Assembly: GCA_000500915.1 (NCBI GenBank)
Contig: AYNO01000022.1
Coordinates: 1-33,895, forward strand
Origin: Rhodobacter sp. CACIA14H1
GTDB lineage: Bacteria > Pseudomonadota > Alphaproteobacteria > Rhodobacterales > Rhodobacteraceae
Length of the DNA: 33,895 bases
Direction of reading: 5' to 3'
Shown: positions 24,883 through 33,895 of the stretch, in pieces
How the letters are laid out: every line of letters starts with the position of its first letter
Position numbering within the stretch: position 1 is the stretch's first letter
Program-made: the position numbers and the translations under genes
The notes under the pieces: model-generated
What the model was told of the DNA's origin: nothing
Databases searched by the model: none
Seen by the model: the letters and a program-made list of their open reading frames with translations, nothing else

Positions 24883-26066
24883 AGCGTTGCAAGCTCCGTT
24901 TCCAGTGCGGCGAGGTCGTCGAGTGTGGCGGCAGGCGCAAAGAGGTCGAGATGCGGCAGGGCAGCGGCCATGCCTGCGGCGACGGGCTGGTAGTCGCGCC
25001 AGCCTTTCAGCGGGTTGAGCCAGAGGATGCGGCAGCCGCGTTTCGACAGGCGTTCAAGGGCCGCGCCTATGTCGGTGGCGGCGGCGGAATCGTAGCCGTC
25101 CGACAGGATCATCACGACGGTGCGGCCATCGACATGGGTTCTGGCATGGGTGGTGGCGAAGTGCATCAGCGCCGCGCCGATGCGCGAGCCGCCGCCGAAG
25201 CCGTCGGCCAGCAGGGTGATGCGGTTCAGGGCGCGGAAGGGGTCTTCGTCGCGCAGCGCCTCGGTCACGCGGACGAGGCGGGTGTGGAAAAGGTAGGCGT
25301 CGGCGCTGCCATCCGCCCGCATCAGGCCCGCGAGGAAGGCGAGGAAGGGGCGGGCATAGGGTTGCATGGAGCCCGACACATCCACCAGCGCGGCGATGCG
25401 GACGGGGCGGTCGGGGTGGCGGCGTTTCTTCAGCCGGAAGGGTTCCCCGCCGGTGGAGAGCGAGGCGCGGAGCGTGCGGCGCAGGTCGATCCTTGCGCCC
25501 TTGGTCGCGGCCTTGGCGCGGCGGGAGCGGCGGTCCCGCAGGGCCGCACCGATGCGGCGGGCGACGGCTTCGGCAAGGCGGATGTCGTCGGCAGAGACGA
25601 TTTCGCGCAGGTCGCGGCGGCGGAGGTTCGTCACGCGGGTGGCGATGAGGCGGCCTTCGCCGCCGGTATCGGCCTCGCCGTCGCGGTCGGTGTCGGGGGT
25701 TTCCGTCCGGCCCGCGCCGCCGGTGGCGGTGCCTTCGGCTTCGCGGGTGGCCTTGGCTGGGGTGGTGTTGGACGGGACGGCCTTGGTGCGGACGCGGCCG
25801 CCGTTGCGCCAGTAGCTGTCGAAGGTGGCGTCGAAGCGGGCCCAGTCCTCGGCGCTGCCGCAGCAGACGGATTTCAGGGCGCGGCGGGTCTGGGGTTCCG
25901 ATGTGTCGGTGGTGGCCAAGGCGGCAAGGGCCGTTTCCGTTTCCGCGATGCCGAGGCGGAAGCCGTTGGCGCGCAGATGCGCCATGAAGCCCGCGATGCG
26001 GGCCACGGGGCCGGGGTCGCGGGCGGCGAAGCGGGTGACGGCGCCGCGAAGGTGGGGCCCGCTCAT
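24879..26066 (-). CDS. coxE: VWA-domain CO dehydrogenase maturation protein CoxE
   Basis: A 395-residue CoxE-type protein. An N-terminal helical region (1-90) is followed by a charged low-complexity linker (about 95-140). The VWA domain starts near residue 220 with the metal-site motif DVSGSM (229-234), and ILSDGYDSAAATDIGAAL marks the later metal-site aspartate. CoxE works with the ATPase CoxD in maturing the copper-molybdenum site of CO dehydrogenase. Four-base overlaps on both sides show tight coupling to coxD and coxF. Confidence 0.9.
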   Translation of the reverse strand: MSGPHLRGAVTRFAARDPGPVARIAGFMAHLRANGFRLGIAETETALAALATTDTSEPQTRRALKSVCCGSAEDWARFDATFDSYWRNGGRVRTKAVPSNTTPAKATREAEGTATGGAGRTETPDTDRDGEADTGGEGRLIATRVTNLRRRDLREIVSADDIRLAEAVARRIGAALRDRRSRRAKAATKGARIDLRRTLRASLSTGGEPFRLKKRRHPDRPVRIAALVDVSGSMQPYARPFLAFLAGLMRADGSADAYLFHTRLVRVTEALRDEDPFRALNRITLLADGFGGGSRIGAALMHFATTHARTHVDGRTVVMILSDGYDSAAATDIGAALERLSKRGCRILWLNPLKGWRDYQPVAAGMAAALPHLDLFAPAATLDDLAALETELATL

Positions 26067-26969: not shown

Positions 26970-29390
26970 TCAGCCATGCAGGCCGAGATCGCGGGCGATC
27001 TGCCAGATGCGCCAGTGGTCGTGCGGCATGTGGGATTGCCGCAGGCCGAAGGCGCGGAAGGCGTCGTGGACCGCGTTGGAAAACGCCGGAACCGACCCCA
27101 CGTTGGGGCTTTCGCCCACGCCCTTGGCCCCGATGGGATGGTGGGGCGACGGGGTTTCGGTGTGGTCGGTGGTGTAATGTGGCGTCTCCCATGCGGTGGG
27201 CAGGAAGAAATCCATCAGCGTGCCGGTCTTGACGTTGCCGATCTCGTCATAGGCGATCTCCTGCCCCATGGCGATGGCATAGCCTTCGGTGGCGCCCCCG
27301 TGGACCTGACCTTCGATGACCATCGGGTTGATGCGGGTGCCGCAATCGTCCAGCGCATAGAACTGGCGGACTTCATGTTCGCCCGTGTCCACGTCGATCT
27401 CCATCACGGCGATATAGGCGCCGAAGGGATAGGTCATGTTGGGCGGGTCGTAGTAGCTGACCGCCTCCAGCCCCGGTTCGATGCCGGGGATCGCCTGATT
27501 GTAGGCCGCATAGGCGATGTCCTTCATGGTCTTGAACCGCTCCGGCGCGCCTTTGACGACGAAGCGGTCCACGTCCCATTCAAGGTCGCCTTCGTGGACT
27601 TCCAGCAGCCAAGCCGCGATCATCTGCGCCTTGGCGCGGATCTTGCGGCCGCACAGCGCCGTCGCCGCCCCTGCAACTGGGGTGGAGCGGGAGCCGTAGG
27701 TGCCAAGGCCATAGGGCGCGGTGTCGGTATCGCCTTCCTCGACCGTGATGCTATCCGCCGAAAGGCCGATCTCGGTGGCGATGATCTGGGCGAAGGTGGT
27801 GGCGTGGCCTTGGCCTTGGCTGATGGTCCCAAGCCGCGCGATGGCCGATCCGGTGGGATGGATGCGGATTTCGCACGAGTCGAACATGCCCATCCCGAGG
27901 ATGTCGCAGTTCTTCACCGGACCCGCGCCCACGATTTCGGTGAAGTGGGTCAGACCGATCCCCAAGAGCTTGCGCGTCTTGCCGGCCTTGAAGTCGGCAA
28001 TGCGCTGCGCCTGTTCGGCGCGGAGCGCCTTGTAGTTCACCGCCTCCAGCGCCTTGTCCCATGCGGTGTGGTAGTCGCCGGAGTCGTATTCCCAACCCAG
28101 CGCGGACTGGTAGGGGAACTGGTCCTTGCGGATGAAGTTGATGCGCCGCAACTCCGCCGCGTCCATGTTCAGCTCGATCGCCAGAACCTCGATCATCCGT
28201 TCGATGAAATAGGCGGCCTCAGTCACGCGGAAGGAACAGCGATAGGCGACGCCGCCGGGGGCCTTGTTGGTATAGACGCCGTCCACGCCGACATAGGCGA
28301 CGGGGATGTCGTAGCTGCCGGTGCAGATGTGGAAGAAGCCTGCGGGGAACTTCGTCGGGTCGGCGCAGGCGTCGAACGCGCCGTGGTCGGCAGTCACATG
28401 GCAATGCAGCGCGGTGATCTTGCCGTCCTTCGTCGCGCTGATGCGCCCCTTCATCCAGTAGTCGCGGGCAAAGGCGGTGGCCATCAGGTTGTCCATCCGG
28501 TCTTCGATCCACTTCACGGGCTTGCCCGTGACGATGGAGGCGACGATGGCGCAGACATAGCCCGGATAGACGCCGACCTTGTTGCCGAAGCCGCCGCCGA
28601 TATCGGGCGAGATGACGCGGATGTTGTGCTCCTCGATCCCCGACAGGAGGGAGGCGACGGTGCGGACGACGTGGGGGGCCTGGAAGGTGCCCCAGACGGT
28701 CAGCTTGCCGTTCACCTTGTCCATGCTGGCCACGGTCCCGCAGGTTTCCAGCGGGCAGGGATGGGTGCGGTGGTAATAGACCATCTCCTCGGCCACGACC
28801 TCGGACGCATCCAGCGCCTGTTCGGTGGCCTCCTTGTCCCCCGTCTCCCACAGGAAGATGTGGTTGTGGTGGCGGCGCGGGCCGTGGGCGCCGGACATGA
28901 TGCCGTTCAGGTCTTCGCGCAGGACGGTCGCGTCCGGCTCCAGCGCCTTGAACGGGTCCACGATGACGGGGAGTTCCTCGTATTCCACCTCCACCAGTTC
29001 GATGGCATCGGCGGCGATGTAGCGGTCGGTGGCGACGACGAAGGCCACTTCCTGCCCCTGGAACAGCACCTTTCCATCGGCCAGCACCATCTGCTTGTCG
29101 CCCGCCAGCGTGGGCATCCAGTGCAGGTTCAGCGGCGCGAGGTCGGCGGCGGTGAGGACCGCGATGACGCCGGGCAGCGCCTTGGCGGCGTCGGCGTTGA
29201 TCGACTTCACGCGGGCATGGGCATAGGGCGACCGGACGAAATCGCCGAACAGCATCCCCGGCAGCTTGATGTCATCGACATAGTTGCCCTTGCCTTGGGT
29301 GAAGCGGACATCCTCGACCCGCTTGCGGCTGGCCCCCATGCCCTTGAGGTTGGCGATGCGTTCTTCGCGGCTTGGCGTCAGGTCGTTCAT
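26970..29390 (-). CDS. coxL: Aerobic CO dehydrogenase large subunit, form I
   Basis: An 806-residue molybdopterin subunit that oxidises CO to CO2. The active-site loop AYRCSFR (382-388, with C385 as the copper-binding cysteine) is the form I signature separating true CO dehydrogenases from form II homologues. The molybdenum-site glutamate lies in [12 protein letters not shown] near the C-terminus. Other cofactor blocks include [16 protein letters not shown] (263-278). I start at 29390 ([19 protein letters not shown]), overlapping coxS by four bases; the longer frame upstream lies inside coxS. Gene order M-S-L also matches form I. Confidence 0.97.
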
Positions 29391-29878
29391 TCTGCGGCCT
29401 CCTTCGCGTTCATCTCGGCTGCGGCGGCGAGGATCGCCTTGACGATGTTCTGGTATCCCGTGCAGCGGCACAGGTTTCCGGCCATGCCGAAGCGCACTTC
29501 TTCCTCGGTGGGCGCGGGGTTTTCCTGCAGCAGGCGGTGGGCGCGGGTGATCATGCCGGGGGTGCAGTAGCCGCATTGCAGGCCGTGATGTTCGCGGAAC
29601 ATGCGTTGCAGGACGTGCAGGCCGTCCGGGTTGCCCAGCCCTTCGATGGTGGTGATGGTCGCCCCATCCGCCTGCGCGGCAAGGACGGTGCAGGATTTGA
29701 CGGATTTGCCGTCCATATCCACGGTGCAGGCGCCGCAATGGCTGGTTTCGCAGCCGATATGCGGGCCGGTCAGGCCCAGCTTTTCGCGCAGCACATGGAT
29801 GAGGAGTTCGCGCGGTTCGGCGAGGAGTTCGTGCGCCTCGCCGTTCACGGTGAGGCTGATCTGCATCTTCTTGGCCAT
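29387..29878 (-). CDS. coxS: Aerobic CO dehydrogenase small subunit, 2x[2Fe-2S]
   Basis: A 163-residue iron-sulfur subunit. The N-terminal ferredoxin-type cluster uses C43, C48, C51 and C63 ([14 protein letters not shown]); the C-terminal cluster uses C102, C105, C137 and C139 ([16 protein letters not shown]). It carries electrons from the Mo-Cu site to the FAD of CoxM. AAGGGGGA precedes the ATG at 29878. It is 10 bases after coxM and coupled to coxL. Confidence 0.96.
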
Positions 29879-29888
29879 GTTGTCCCCC

Positions 29889-30743
29889 TTACGCCCGCGA
29901 CCATGCGCGGGTGATGGCGCGGGCGAGGATGACGCCCGCGACGTGACGCTTGAATTCGATGGGGCCGCGGTTGTCCTTCTGCGGGTCGATGTCGCCCAGC
30001 ATGGCGGTGACGGCGACCTTGATGGCGGCATCGCCGCAGTCGGACCCCATCAGGGCGGCGGCGGCGTCTTCGGACCAGACGGGGGTGTCGGAGAGGTTGG
30101 TCATGGCGACCGAGGCCGTTGCCACCTTGCCGCCCGCCTTGGTCAGCAGGACGGCGGCGGCGGCGGTGGCGTAGTCGCCGATCTTGCGCTTCTGCTTTTC
30201 ATAGGCGTAGCCGCCGGAGGGGGCGGTGAAGGTGATCTTCGTCAGGATTTCATCGTCGGCGCGTTCGGTGACATAGGCCGAATGGTAGAAGTCCCGCGCC
30301 GCCACATCGCGGCTGCCACCGGGACCGGCCAGCGTGAAGGTCGCGCCAAGGCATTGCATCAGCCCCGGCATGTCGTTGCCCGGGTCGCCATTGGCCACGT
30401 TGCCGCCCACGGTGCCCATGTAGCGCACCTGCGGGTCGGCGATCTGCAACGCCGCTTCGCGCAGCAGGGGGGCGGCCTTGGCCAGCCCGTCATGGGCGAT
30501 GAGTTCCGCCTGCGTGACCATCGCGCCGATGGTGACGGTGTCGCCCGCGACGGTGATGCCGCGCAGTTCGCCCACCTTCTGCAGGTCCACCAGATGGCTG
30601 ATGGCTGCCATGCGCAGCTTCATCATGGGGATAAGGCTGTGTCCGCCCGCCACGACCCGCGCCTCGTCGCCATGTTCCGTCAGGATGGCGATGGCGGATG
30701 CGAGGCTGTCGGGCCGATGATATTCAAAGGCCGCTGGTATCAT
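29889..30743 (-). CDS. coxM: Aerobic CO dehydrogenase medium subunit, FAD-binding
   Basis: A 284-residue FAD subunit. The two flavin-binding motifs are AGGHSLIP (32-39) and [14 protein letters not shown] (111-124). It passes electrons to the respiratory quinone pool. GGGAGGAG lies close before the ATG at 30743. As the first gene of coxMSLDEFG it receives the promoter, and the 137-bp region upstream holds three direct repeats that may bind the adjacent LytTR regulator. Confidence 0.95.
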
Positions 30744-30821
30744 GTTCTCCTCCCAAGTCTGCGTCGAAACCGCGCAGTTGCCTTGACGCTAGCGGGCGCG
30801 GGGCAGGCGGGGAGGGGCGGC

Positions 30822-30876
30822 GCACGATTTCGGAGGGTTTTTGCACGAAATGCGAAAGCCGCGCACGAAATGCGAA
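30822..30876 (-). promoter_or_regulatory. Three direct repeats upstream of coxM, candidate LytTR operator
   Basis: GCACGAAATGCGAA occurs exactly at 30843-30856 and 30863-30876; a diverged copy, GCACGATTTCGGAG, is at 30822-30835. The starts are 21 and 20 bases apart, so all copies face the same side of the helix. Direct repeats spaced by two helical turns are the known binding pattern of LytTR proteins. They sit between the MHYT-LytTR gene stop and the coxM start. A -10-like TAGCGT (minus strand, 30793-30788) follows downstream. Confidence 0.65.
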
Positions 30877-30880
30877 GCGG

Positions 30881-31987
30881 TCAGACACCAAGCGCGGCGC
30901 GGACTTCCGGCAGGCGGTTGCGGCTGACGGGGATGCGCGGGCCGCCGTCGCCATCCACCATGCAGAGCGCGGTATCCTTCAGCCGTTCGAACTTGGCCAC
31001 GCGGGCCGGGTTCAGCAGATAGCTGCGGTGGACGCGCAGGAAACCGGCGGGGGCGAGGCGCTCCTCGGCCTCGGTGATCGACCAGGGGCAGAAGAGGGAA
31101 TCGCTGCCGCGGATGATGAAGGTGTAATGCCCTTCGGCGCGGATGGCGGACACGGTGGCGGGGTCGATGAAGAGGGTGCGCCCTTCGCGTTCATGCGGGA
31201 TGCGCAGTGATTTGGTGTCGGGTTTCGCCGCCGGTGCGGTATCGGGCTGGGGCGGGGAGGGTTCGGCAGGGGCCTCGGCCTGCGGGCCCGGCAGGAAGGT
31301 GATCGCGGTCAGCAGGAAGGCGGAACAGATGGTGAAGGCGGCAAGGGTGACGAGGATCGCCAGCGTCTCGTTCCCGATGCCGGGGGCGCGGGCGGCGTCG
31401 TCGGCGGGCAGGAAGCCCGTCCCGGCCATGGCGATGAAATGCACGGCGGTGACGGCAAGGCCGAAGCCCAGCGTCCCCTGCACGATGTTGCGCCGCCCGC
31501 GTTCGCCATAGGCCAGACGGACGGCAAGGATCGACAGGATCACCGAGGCCAGCCCCGCGCCTGCGACGCCGAAGGGGGTGAAGACGGGGATGCACAGCTC
31601 CATCCCCGACATGCCGAGGTAGTGCATGACGGAAATCCCCGCGCCGATGATCGCGCCCGCGACGGTCAGGCTGGCCGTGGTGCGCGGGCGGAAATGCAGG
31701 ATCAGCAGCGCGAGGCCCGTCATCAGGATCGCGGCAAGGGCCGAGATCAGCGTGGCGAGCGGGTCGTAGAAATAGAGGATCGGCAGGCGCAGGCCCAGCA
31801 TGGCGACGAAATGCATCGACCAGATGCCGCCGCCCAGAACGATGGCCGCCATGGCCACCACCGCCTTGCGATGCGCCGGGGCCAGACGCGACGCGCCACG
31901 GGTCAGCGACAGGCCGGTGAAGCCCGCCATCAGCGCGATGGCGAGCGATGCGAGGACGAGCCGCCAGTCATGGCTGAAATCCAGCAC
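30881..31987 (-). CDS. MHYT-LytTR membrane transcription regulator (CoxC/CoxH-like)
   Basis: A 368-residue one-component regulator. Seven or so membrane helices hold the three MHYT repeats: SMHFVAM (57-63), VMHYLGM (120-126) and AVHFIAM (181-187), thought to bind a metal and sense a gas or redox ligand. A proline-rich linker (about 235-260) leads to a LytTR DNA-binding domain (268-366; HYTFIIRG, FLRVHRSYLLN, PVSRNRLPEV). This architecture is known from CoxC and CoxH of Oligotropha. I chose GTG 31987 because GGGAGGG lies 6 bases upstream. Probable direct regulator of coxM. Confidence 0.9.
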   Translation of the reverse strand: MLDFSHDWRLVLASLAIALMAGFTGLSLTRGASRLAPAHRKAVVAMAAIVLGGGIWSMHFVAMLGLRLPILYFYDPLATLISALAAILMTGLALLILHFRPRTTASLTVAGAIIGAGISVMHYLGMSGMELCIPVFTPFGVAGAGLASVILSILAVRLAYGERGRRNIVQGTLGFGLAVTAVHFIAMAGTGFLPADDAARAPGIGNETLAILVTLAAFTICSAFLLTAITFLPGPQAEAPAEPSPPQPDTAPAAKPDTKSLRIPHEREGRTLFIDPATVSAIRAEGHYTFIIRGSDSLFCPWSITEAEERLAPAGFLRVHRSYLLNPARVAKFERLKDTALCMVDGDGGPRIPVSRNRLPEVRAALGV

Positions 31988-32049: not shown

Positions 32050-32096
32050 AGGCCCGCAATGGGGGTGGCGTGCTTTTCCGGCGGGGCGGGCGGGGG

Positions 32097-32732
32097 TCAC
32101 AGGCCCATTTCGCGGGCCTTCAGCGCGGCCTCGACGCGGTTGCGGACCTGCAGCTTCTGCAGGATGTTCGTCATGTAGTGCTTCACCGTCTTTTCCTGCA
32201 GGTTCAGGTGCAGCGCGATTTCCTTGTTGGACCGCCCCGTGGCGACGAGGCGGAGGATCTCTGCCTCGCGCAGGGCCAGCCCCTCGCCCTCGGTTGGGCG
32301 GCCGGTGCGGGTCTGCATGGTGGACAGGACCCGCGCGGCCAAGGCGGGCGACACGTAGGACCCGCCCGAGGCGACGGCCTGCAGCACGCCGGTCAGGTCT
32401 GCCGCGCTGACCCCTTTCAGCACATAGCCCCGCGCCCCCGCCCGCAAGGCGGCCAGCACGTCGTCGTCATCCTCGGACACGGTCAGCATGACGATGGCCA
32501 CGGCGGGAAAGCGGTGCGAGATTTCGGCCGCGGCGCGGAGGCCGGAGCCGGGCATGGACACGTCCAGCAGCGCGATGTCGGGCATGTGCTGTTCTACGGC
32601 GAGGATCGCCCCTGCCGTATCGCCCGCCTGCTCCACGACGGAAAAGCCCGGATGTTCCGTCAGGGTGGCGACGACCCCTTCGCGCATCAGCGGGTGGTCG
32701 TCGGCCACGACGATATGCACGGTACCCGTCAC
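32097..32732 (-). CDS. NarL/FixJ-family response regulator
   Basis: A 211-residue response regulator. The receiver domain has acidic D11/D12, phospho-acceptor D57 (LLDVSMPG) and K106 (GYVLKGVS). The LuxR-type helix-turn-helix is at the C-terminus (LREAEILRLVATGRSNKEIA, then EKTVKHYMTNILQKL). I start at GTG 32732, with AGGAGG 8 bases upstream and a GTGA overlap with the kinase stop. Its position next to the cox regulator suggests a role in CO or energy metabolism, but its targets are unknown. Confidence 0.9.
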   Translation of the reverse strand: MTGTVHIVVADDHPLMREGVVATLTEHPGFSVVEQAGDTAGAILAVEQHMPDIALLDVSMPGSGLRAAAEISHRFPAVAIVMLTVSEDDDDVLAALRAGARGYVLKGVSAADLTGVLQAVASGGSYVSPALAARVLSTMQTRTGRPTEGEGLALREAEILRLVATGRSNKEIALHLNLQEKTVKHYMTNILQKLQVRNRVEAALKAREMGL

Positions 32733-33895
32733 GGCTGCGCCTCCTGCGTCAGGTGGACGGTGATGCGGGTGCCCGCGCCCTTGCGGCTGTCCACGGTGAA
32801 CCTGCCGCCGATGCTTTCGATCCGTTCGCGCAGGCCCGCGAGCCCCAGCCCCCCGGTTCGGCCCTGCGGGTCGAAGCCCGGCCCGCGATCGGCAACCGAT
32901 ACGGTGATCTGGCCTTCGACGGTCAGGCAGACCACGGCGACCTCGGCCCCGGGGGCGTGGCGGTAGGCGTTCATCAGACCCTCCTGCACGAAGCGGTAAA
33001 GGCAGATCAGCGCGGGGTGGGGGGCCGGGCGGTCGGGCCACTGTTCGGGCGCGGGCCAGCGCAGGACGGTGGTGCCGGTGCGGCGTTCATGGGCGCCGAT
33101 GGCGGCTTCCAGCGTGTCGCGCAGGCTGCGGCCCCGCAGTTCCGGCAGGCTGAGCCCCTGGCAGATGTTGCGGATGTCGTGCAGCGCGTCGGCCAGCGCG
33201 GTGCGCAGGGCGGCGACCTCGCGGTCGTCGGGGGGCATGTTGGCGCGTTTTGTCAGGGAATCCAGCCGCAGGGCCGCGACGGCCAGCGCCTGTGCGGGCC
33301 CGTCATGCAGTTCGGCGCTGATCCGGCGCATCCCCTGTTCGCTGCGTTCCGACAACCGCCGCGACGCGCCTTCGACGCGCAGCCGCAGGGCGACGTTCTG
33401 GGCGGAAATGCGCGACAGGTCGCGGTAGCGCGATTCCAGCGTCCTGCGCTGGTCCTCGATCGTGCGGCTGCCCGCCTTGACCACGCCGAACAGCGCCGCG
33501 AAGGTCACGAGGGAAACGAGGCTGACCACGCCCCATGACTGGAGCCGGGCCCATTTCAGGTCGGATTCCAGTTCGGCAGCGTTCAGGTAGAATTCGGCAA
33601 CCGCGATCACCTCGCCCGTCACGATGGAGTGGATGGGGTTGTAAACCTCCAGCAGCGGGACGCCGATGTTCTGTTCGGGCAGGTTCTCCGCCTCGTCCAG
33701 CGAGTCGAACGAGGCGGTGAGGTCGCCGGTCCACGCCTTGCGCAGGCTGTCGCTGGGGGGGAAGGTGCGCCCGATCAGCGAAGCATCCGACGAATAGGCC
33801 AGACGCCCGCCTTCGCGCCAGATCTTGACCGAGATGATGCGGTCCGACAGCGGCGGTTCGGACAGCACCGCCTGCATCCGCGCGATGGTGGCAGG
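32729..33895 (-). CDS. NarX/DegS-type sensor histidine kinase, 5' end missing
   Basis: The last 388 residues of a kinase that continues past the right edge; the frame is open to the final base. The visible part has the end of a Cache-like extracellular sensor (REGGRLAYSSDASLIGRTFP, PLLEVYNPIHS), one membrane helix (SWGVVSLVSLVTFAALFGVV), a coiled coil, the HisKA_3 H-box (RRISAELHDGPAQALAVAAL) and an HATPase domain (YRFVQEGLMNAYRHA, DRGPGFDPQ, GLGLAGLRERIESIGG). It phosphorylates the response regulator that overlaps its stop. The ligand is unknown. Confidence 0.9.
   Translation of the reverse strand, partial: PATIARMQAVLSEPPLSDRIISVKIWREGGRLAYSSDASLIGRTFPPSDSLRKAWTGDLTASFDSLDEAENLPEQNIGVPLLEVYNPIHSIVTGEVIAVAEFYLNAAELESDLKWARLQSWGVVSLVSLVTFAALFGVVKAGSRTIEDQRRTLESRYRDLSRISAQNVALRLRVEGASRRLSERSEQGMRRISAELHDGPAQALAVAALRLDSLTKRANMPPDDREVAALRTALADALHDIRNICQGLSLPELRGRSLRDTLEAAIGAHERRTGTTVLRWPAPEQWPDRPAPHPALICLYRFVQEGLMNAYRHAPGAEVAVVCLTVEGQITVSVADRGPGFDPQGRTGGLGLAGLRERIESIGGRFTVDSRKGAGTRITVHLTQEAQP

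Follow-up and report, generated by a model that had tools for sequence, protein, structure and literature searches.

What is the role of the direct repeats in the short gap between a regulator gene and coxM in Rhodobacter sp. CACIA14H1? The window (the whole stretch of DNA that was analysed, 33,895 nucleotides) carries on its minus strand the genes coxM (29889..30743; open frames and domain search), coxS (29387..29878; domain search) and coxL (26970..29390; domain search with TIGR02416 above cut-off, start set by eye), which code for the medium, small and large subunits of CO dehydrogenase. Ahead of coxM on the same strand lies a regulator gene of the CoxC type (30881..31987; open frames and domain search), for which a GTG start was chosen by eye on account of a preceding GGGAGGG; its open frame extends up to a TTG at 32059. 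The sequence-only reading had described the product as a protein with MHYT and LytTR parts, and the domain search agrees, with PF03707 (MHYT, N-terminal) and PF04397 (LytTR, C-terminal) both above cut-off. An NCBIfam search of the regulator returned no model above its cut-off. Among solved structures, a single response-regulator chain matched its LytTR domain with E 0.0038, and three other entries listed had E of at least 0.3. The protein is about 31% identical to CoxC of Afipia. The three MHYT motifs (30884-31975) read MHF, MHY and VHF; the histidine is kept in all three, and VHF replaces MHY in the third. The regulator is the sole LytTR match in the genome of the window (assembly 88% complete).

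From the regulator stop codon (low end 30881) to the coxM ATG (30743), the gap measures 137 bp (30744-30880). The repeat finder located exact copies of GCACGAAATGCGAA at 30843-30856 and 30863-30876, with a start spacing of 20. A diverged copy, GCACGATTTCGGAG, lies at 30822-30835 with a spacing of 21 and is identical at 9 of 14 positions as counted by eye; it is absent from the copy list of the repeat finder. Read on the minus strand toward coxM, the array is TTCGCATTTCGTGC twice, then CTCCGAAATCGTGC. The two exact 14-bp copies, the diverged third and the spacings claimed from sequence alone are thus all present. No non-overlapping exact direct repeat in the gap exceeds 14 bp, and this length was reached in 0 of 5000 dinucleotide shuffles of the gap, in which the maximum was 12. 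Short direct repeats are common, and when the window is cut into 1688 overlapping tiles of 137 bp, 8 of them contain a 14-bp exact repeat, the one in the coxM gap included; nevertheless, since no shuffle gave such a repeat and the element is kept across genera in association with the regulator, a chance or neutral repeat is rejected as highly improbable.

The conservation of the array was analysed in the family, which by its named relatives corresponds to the Rhodobacterales (e.g., Rhodobacter ruber, L151, with a regulator 69% identical). Among 295 genomes searched, 68 have a match to the regulator (E 1e-20 or better), 72 have coxL and 67 have both, and the regulator gene and coxM are directly adjacent in nearly all loci fetched. 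An early scan for TTCNNGC triplets was too loose, gave wrong triplets in several loci and was superseded by an iterated 14-bp matrix built from 67 family coxM upstreams. Duplicates and loci devoid of coxM were excluded from matrix scoring (L002-L005, L021, L061, L067, L080-L084, L086). The matrix consensus is the 14-bp element KCGCANYTCGTGMR, eight positions of which are conserved to at least 94%. In the register of this matrix, the putative operator elements of the window, all on the minus strand, are the distal element 1 (TCGCATTTCGTGCG, 30862..30875), element 2 (TCGCATTTCGTGCA, 30842..30855, 20 bp from element 1) and the diverged element 3 (TCCGAAATCGTGCG, 30821..30834, 21 bp from element 2). 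Elements 1 and 2 form the matrix pair (L001) and match the strict pair pattern exactly, and element 3 was assigned from the sequence and the triplet scan. With respect to the core TTNNNGCN, elements 1 and 2 read TTCGTGCG and TTCGTGCA, and element 3 reads ATCGTGCG.

The sequence-only reading had proposed a comparison of coxM upstream regions from relatives that have and that lack the regulator gene. Where the regulator is present, the repeats are retained as predicted: 66 of the 67 family upstreams outscore every control (coxM coding stretches, reverse complements and 1340 resampled sequences; highest 10.3), a result which is partly circular because the same 67 sequences made the matrix. The exception, L071, scores 9.1 and thus stays under the highest resampled control. 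Less circular than the score is a scan of spacings from 8 to 63 bp, which has a clear optimum at 20 and 21 only. When the upstreams are anchored on element 2 (n=65; L068 and L071, which have weak pairs, were left out here, in the family count of third cores and in the search for a -10 box), two elements rise above less conserved flanks and a weaker third follows. Some relatives keep the third core: 32 of 65 upstreams have it at offset 20 or 21, and for offsets 24 and 25 the same count is 16 of 65, owing to an overlapping word TTGAT.

Presence of the element goes along with presence of the regulator gene. The strict pair pattern occurs in 41 of the 295 genomes, once in each, and every one of them belongs to the 68 that carry the regulator; it occurs in none of the 227 genomes without it, and the reversed pattern in none of the 295. 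The corresponding Fisher value of 2e-32 ignores kinship, nearly every genome representing another genus. In the genome of the window, the sole exact match lies upstream of coxM, and other places need 2 or 3 mismatches (the pair of elements 2 and 3 being recovered at 3). As the strict pattern is found once per genome, a regulon of many sites is rejected. Even where the regulator gene is distant, by 3.8 kb in G007 and by about 30 kb in G279, the pair is kept before coxM; conservation as a mere by-product of the 3' end of the regulator gene was also considered and rejected.

coxL is present in 67 of the 68 regulator genomes and in five genomes without the regulator, of which three (G008, G102, G110) have cut or broken coxL stretches only, leaving two that are informative, one of them with a remnant pair. 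G083 has neither a LytTR match nor a pair (-33). In G109, the single LytTR gene codes for a different kind of protein (264 aa, its first half hydrophobic as judged by eye), and the pair is eroded, with a score of 16.4. The pair is thus absent from one and eroded in the other of the relatives that lack the regulator. In the coxMSL locus of G109 (L076), which is devoid of an MHYT-LytTR gene, element 1 is intact and element 2 is damaged upstream of coxM, a state that would fit decay of the operator once the regulator is lost. The LytTR proteins of G008 and G109 (L213 and L214; 256 and 264 aa) both have hydrophobic first halves and, judged by eye, represent another membrane-type LytTR family.

The analysis was extended beyond the family. 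A class-level search of 385 genomes gave 25 with a match, some by the MHYT part alone; the pair scores of nine class-level loci range from 7.2 to 40.6, and L090 scores 16.6 over its whole 545-bp gap and -18.8 if limited to 300 bp. From a scan of named relatives, 80 loci were kept of at least 583, and plasmid records were added. Among the matches listed, 53 loci have regulator and coxM in order (48 from the named scan and 5 from plasmids), covering Hyphomicrobiales, Rhodospirillales and two assemblies titled Granulosicoccus-like; training genomes may recur among the Rhodobacterales loci (L139/G262, L167/G086). All 53 of these listed gaps, taken as lying outside the training set, exceed their coding, reversed and reverse-complement controls (lowest gap -3.8, highest control -7.9, mean of the gaps 31.9). 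For whole-locus controls, 33 loci had been intended, of which L164, L167 and L171 are true positives; the remaining 30, which match by the MHYT part alone, have no pair above 6.0. Three weak gaps among the 53 listed, which exceed their own controls by a small margin, stay below that value (L155, -3.8; L134, -2.0; L118, 2.3). The best pair of the whole locus falls in the gap between regulator and coxM in 52 of the 53 listed loci; for Afipia, PcoxB ties.

Outside the family, 22 of the 29 loci analysed among the matches listed have the third core at offset 19 or 20, with L115 (near-identical to L110) and L155 excluded from these analyses. A block with the consensus ATAGGTCA stands at a fixed distance before element 1 in coxC-coxM gaps (L112-L145 and others); 21 of 26 rows, as counted by eye, carry GTC at -13 to -11. 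This block possibly represents a degenerate element, one more step upstream. Two metagenome assemblies titled Granulosicoccaceae/Granulosicoccus (L149, L155) share the gene order regulator-coxMSL. Their pairs are weaker (19.3 and -3.8), and transfer of the module or mis-binned contigs are possible. In Sinorhizobium meliloti AK83 pSINME01 (L111:5237-5300), a pair scoring 28.9 and a third core follow an MHYT-LytTR gene; the 9.2 kb of this locus contain no match to coxM, coxS or coxL, the next annotated gene codes for an EAL-domain protein, and the pair is either a remnant or a new target. Two other stretches with a full-length MHYT-LytTR gene and devoid of coxM (L121, L136) have no pair above 6.0.

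In the window, genes for a NarL/LuxR-type response regulator and a histidine kinase (the latter incomplete at the window end) adjoin the regulator gene (32097-33895). Their adjacency could suggest that the site belongs to them. However, among the matches listed, relatives of this gene pair are missing from 81 of 83 loci of at least 10 kb, the two matches being L155 and L165, the latter not an MHYT-LytTR locus, and L080, from the same genus (G104), has neither gene; binding by the neighbouring response regulator is thus rejected and would be most surprising. Relatives of both genes are present in the 9.1-kb locus L113.

We thus consider it very likely that the array serves the neighbouring MHYT-LytTR regulator, a protein of the CoxC type, as its operator at the coxMSL promoter. 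Counting against this reading are the identity of about 31% to Afipia CoxC, the weak gaps, the partly circular family score and the small number of informative genomes devoid of the regulator. The anatomy of the array, its conservation, its tie to the regulator gene and its near-uniqueness in the genome are read from the sequences themselves. Binding, and the sensing of CO with copper, are inferred from the work on Afipia CoxC. LytTR domains, held at the inner membrane by the MHYT part, would bind the two strong 14-bp elements and the weaker third, which lie on the same side of the DNA at intervals of two helical turns; this arrangement suggests cooperative binding by the membrane-held domains. 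CO would be sensed at the membrane with copper, occupancy of the array would change, and the CO dehydrogenase genes would be induced. The operator lies behind the regulator gene and the genome has no second good match, so that control of the regulator by itself through this site is unlikely.

AgrA and AlgR are among the canonical LytTR proteins. According to a 2024 paper (PMC11347149), canonical LytTR sites consist of a pair of 9-bp repeats 10-13 bp apart. The window resembles these in having direct repeats two helical turns apart, but differs by its 14-bp elements, two strong and one weak, and by its membrane-bound protein, canonical LytTR proteins being mostly response regulators. As described in the same paper, RcoM1 of Paraburkholderia xenovorans has an operator in which TTCNNGCA is directly repeated three times with gaps of 12-13 bp, which correspond to 20-21-bp steps. 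The window shares with RcoM1 the three direct repeats, the steps (20 and 21 bp, as in CoxC/RcoM-type operators), the LytTR domain and the association with cox genes; RcoM is a soluble haem protein, unlike the regulator of the window.

The closest precedent is CoxC of Afipia carboxidovorans OM5, an MHYT-LytTR protein. As described in PMC11347149, its LytTR domain binds three direct repeats at PcoxB, which the protein represses in E. coli; repression is relieved by CO via the MHYT domain with copper, and the array is said to overlap the -35 box. The mutant primers given there define the repeats as TTACCGCC, TTTGGGCA and TTGCGGCA at pHCG3 25704, 25733 and 25759, which is 29 and 26 bp from start to start, the 18-21 bp of the text being the gaps between repeats. 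The window shares with this system the type of protein, the cox genes and three direct repeats, with a core like TTNNNGCN in elements 1 and 2. It differs in its target (coxM rather than PcoxB), in its 14-bp element with steps of 20 and 21, and in the apparent position of its elements upstream of the predicted -35 place. Apart from Afipia, coxB was detected in none of the other 85 loci examined, among the matches listed.

We ran the Rhodobacterales matrix over all 133,057 bases of Afipia pHCG3, on both strands and with spacings of 15-27. The top five pairs are located at three cox promoters and in two unrelated genes: PcoxB (25686, step 21, score 14.1), the coxC-coxM gap (28726, step 20, 14.1), the inside of a hydrogenase gene (66365, 13.6), the coxH-coxI gap (37938, step 20, 11.4) and the inside of fba (48584, 10.8). 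The next best pair scores 7.8. That a matrix trained on another order puts PcoxB, the site of demonstrated CoxC binding (PMC11347149), at the top of the plasmid speaks for the operator reading. The array in the coxH-coxI gap (L208:37938-37992) is triplet-like (CAGCAGTTCATGCG, TCGTAGTTCGTGTT and a core CTCGTGAT) and lies behind coxH, the second MHYT-LytTR gene of Afipia. At PcoxB, the conserved register (pHCG3 25686-25741) reads CCGCAGTTCATGCG, CCGCCGTTGGTGGA and AGTCGTTTGGGCAA with steps of 21 and 21 and element scores of 12.5, 1.6 and -25, the third being weak. The core of AGTCGTTTGGGCAA is the published repeat II. Since the published mutation of repeat I also hits position 2 of element 2, a G conserved to 99% in the matrix, its effect is compatible with both registers. 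The third published mutation, reported to abolish residual binding (PMC11347149), touches none of the three elements in the new register, which, like the weak third element, counts against that register. TTNNNGCN occurs 6 times in the 282-bp PcoxB fragment (plasmid mean 1.4), and this motif alone therefore cannot fix the register. Taken over sequence comparison, the conserved register suggests that the published PcoxB operator was read in the wrong one.

The register bears on the sign of control, for which repression and activation at coxM have about even odds. An RcoM-like activator, for which we put the chances slightly short of even, would when loaded with CO recruit RNA polymerase from elements upstream of -35. 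RcoM, with its 20-21-bp steps, is itself an activator that binds upstream of -35 according to PMC11347149. A motif search, from which upstreams identical in their last 120 bp were also excluded, assigned to 20 of 85 relatives a -10-like word GYATGCAG, at +59 counted from element 2 (79.5 versus 17-25 in six shuffles); with a -10 box there, element 3 would come to lie directly ahead of the -35 place, a position bound by activators. Between +36 and +44, the family alignment shows no -35 hexamer that is conserved (information at most 0.38), a further point in favour of an activator. However, start sites are predicted, and the other 65 relatives, window included, have no common -10 place. For the window, the search chose +47, and a possible, weak -10-like stretch GCTAGCG was noted by eye on the minus strand at 30787..30793, about +62 from the start of element 2, in the position that GYATGCAG occupies in those 20 relatives. 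Activation also contradicts the sole experiment (PMC11347149).

That experiment, in E. coli and by gel shift, found CoxC to be a repressor at PcoxB. By analogy, the protein would block coxM transcription without CO and leave the DNA upon CO binding, which we regard as having practically an even chance. Yet the published -35 overlap rests on a register which the comparison does not support, and in the conserved register the elements lie, by eye, upstream of the predicted -35 places.

With the three-repeat operator of CoxC published in 2024 (PMC11347149), the operator idea is less new than it first appeared. This kind of operator is already known; new are its place at coxM, the 14-bp element KCGCANYTCGTGMR, the register and the breadth. 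A literature search, with subscription literature mostly outside its scope, found a single paper on an MHYT-LytTR operator and, among the matches listed, no coxM operator of this kind. A wider reading, which we advance tentatively and hold to be rather doubtful as a whole, is that MHYT-LytTR proteins recognise the 14-bp element every two turns, that coxM is their ancestral and nearly only target, that PcoxB was misregistered, that the array lies upstream of -35, and that the protein activates coxM upon CO in native hosts, repression in E. coli being a partial action. For Afipia, a corrected register is proposed for the published operator and two candidate operators are named in this model organism, at coxM and at coxI. 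The sign of CoxC control thereby becomes testable at the promoter of the enzyme itself.
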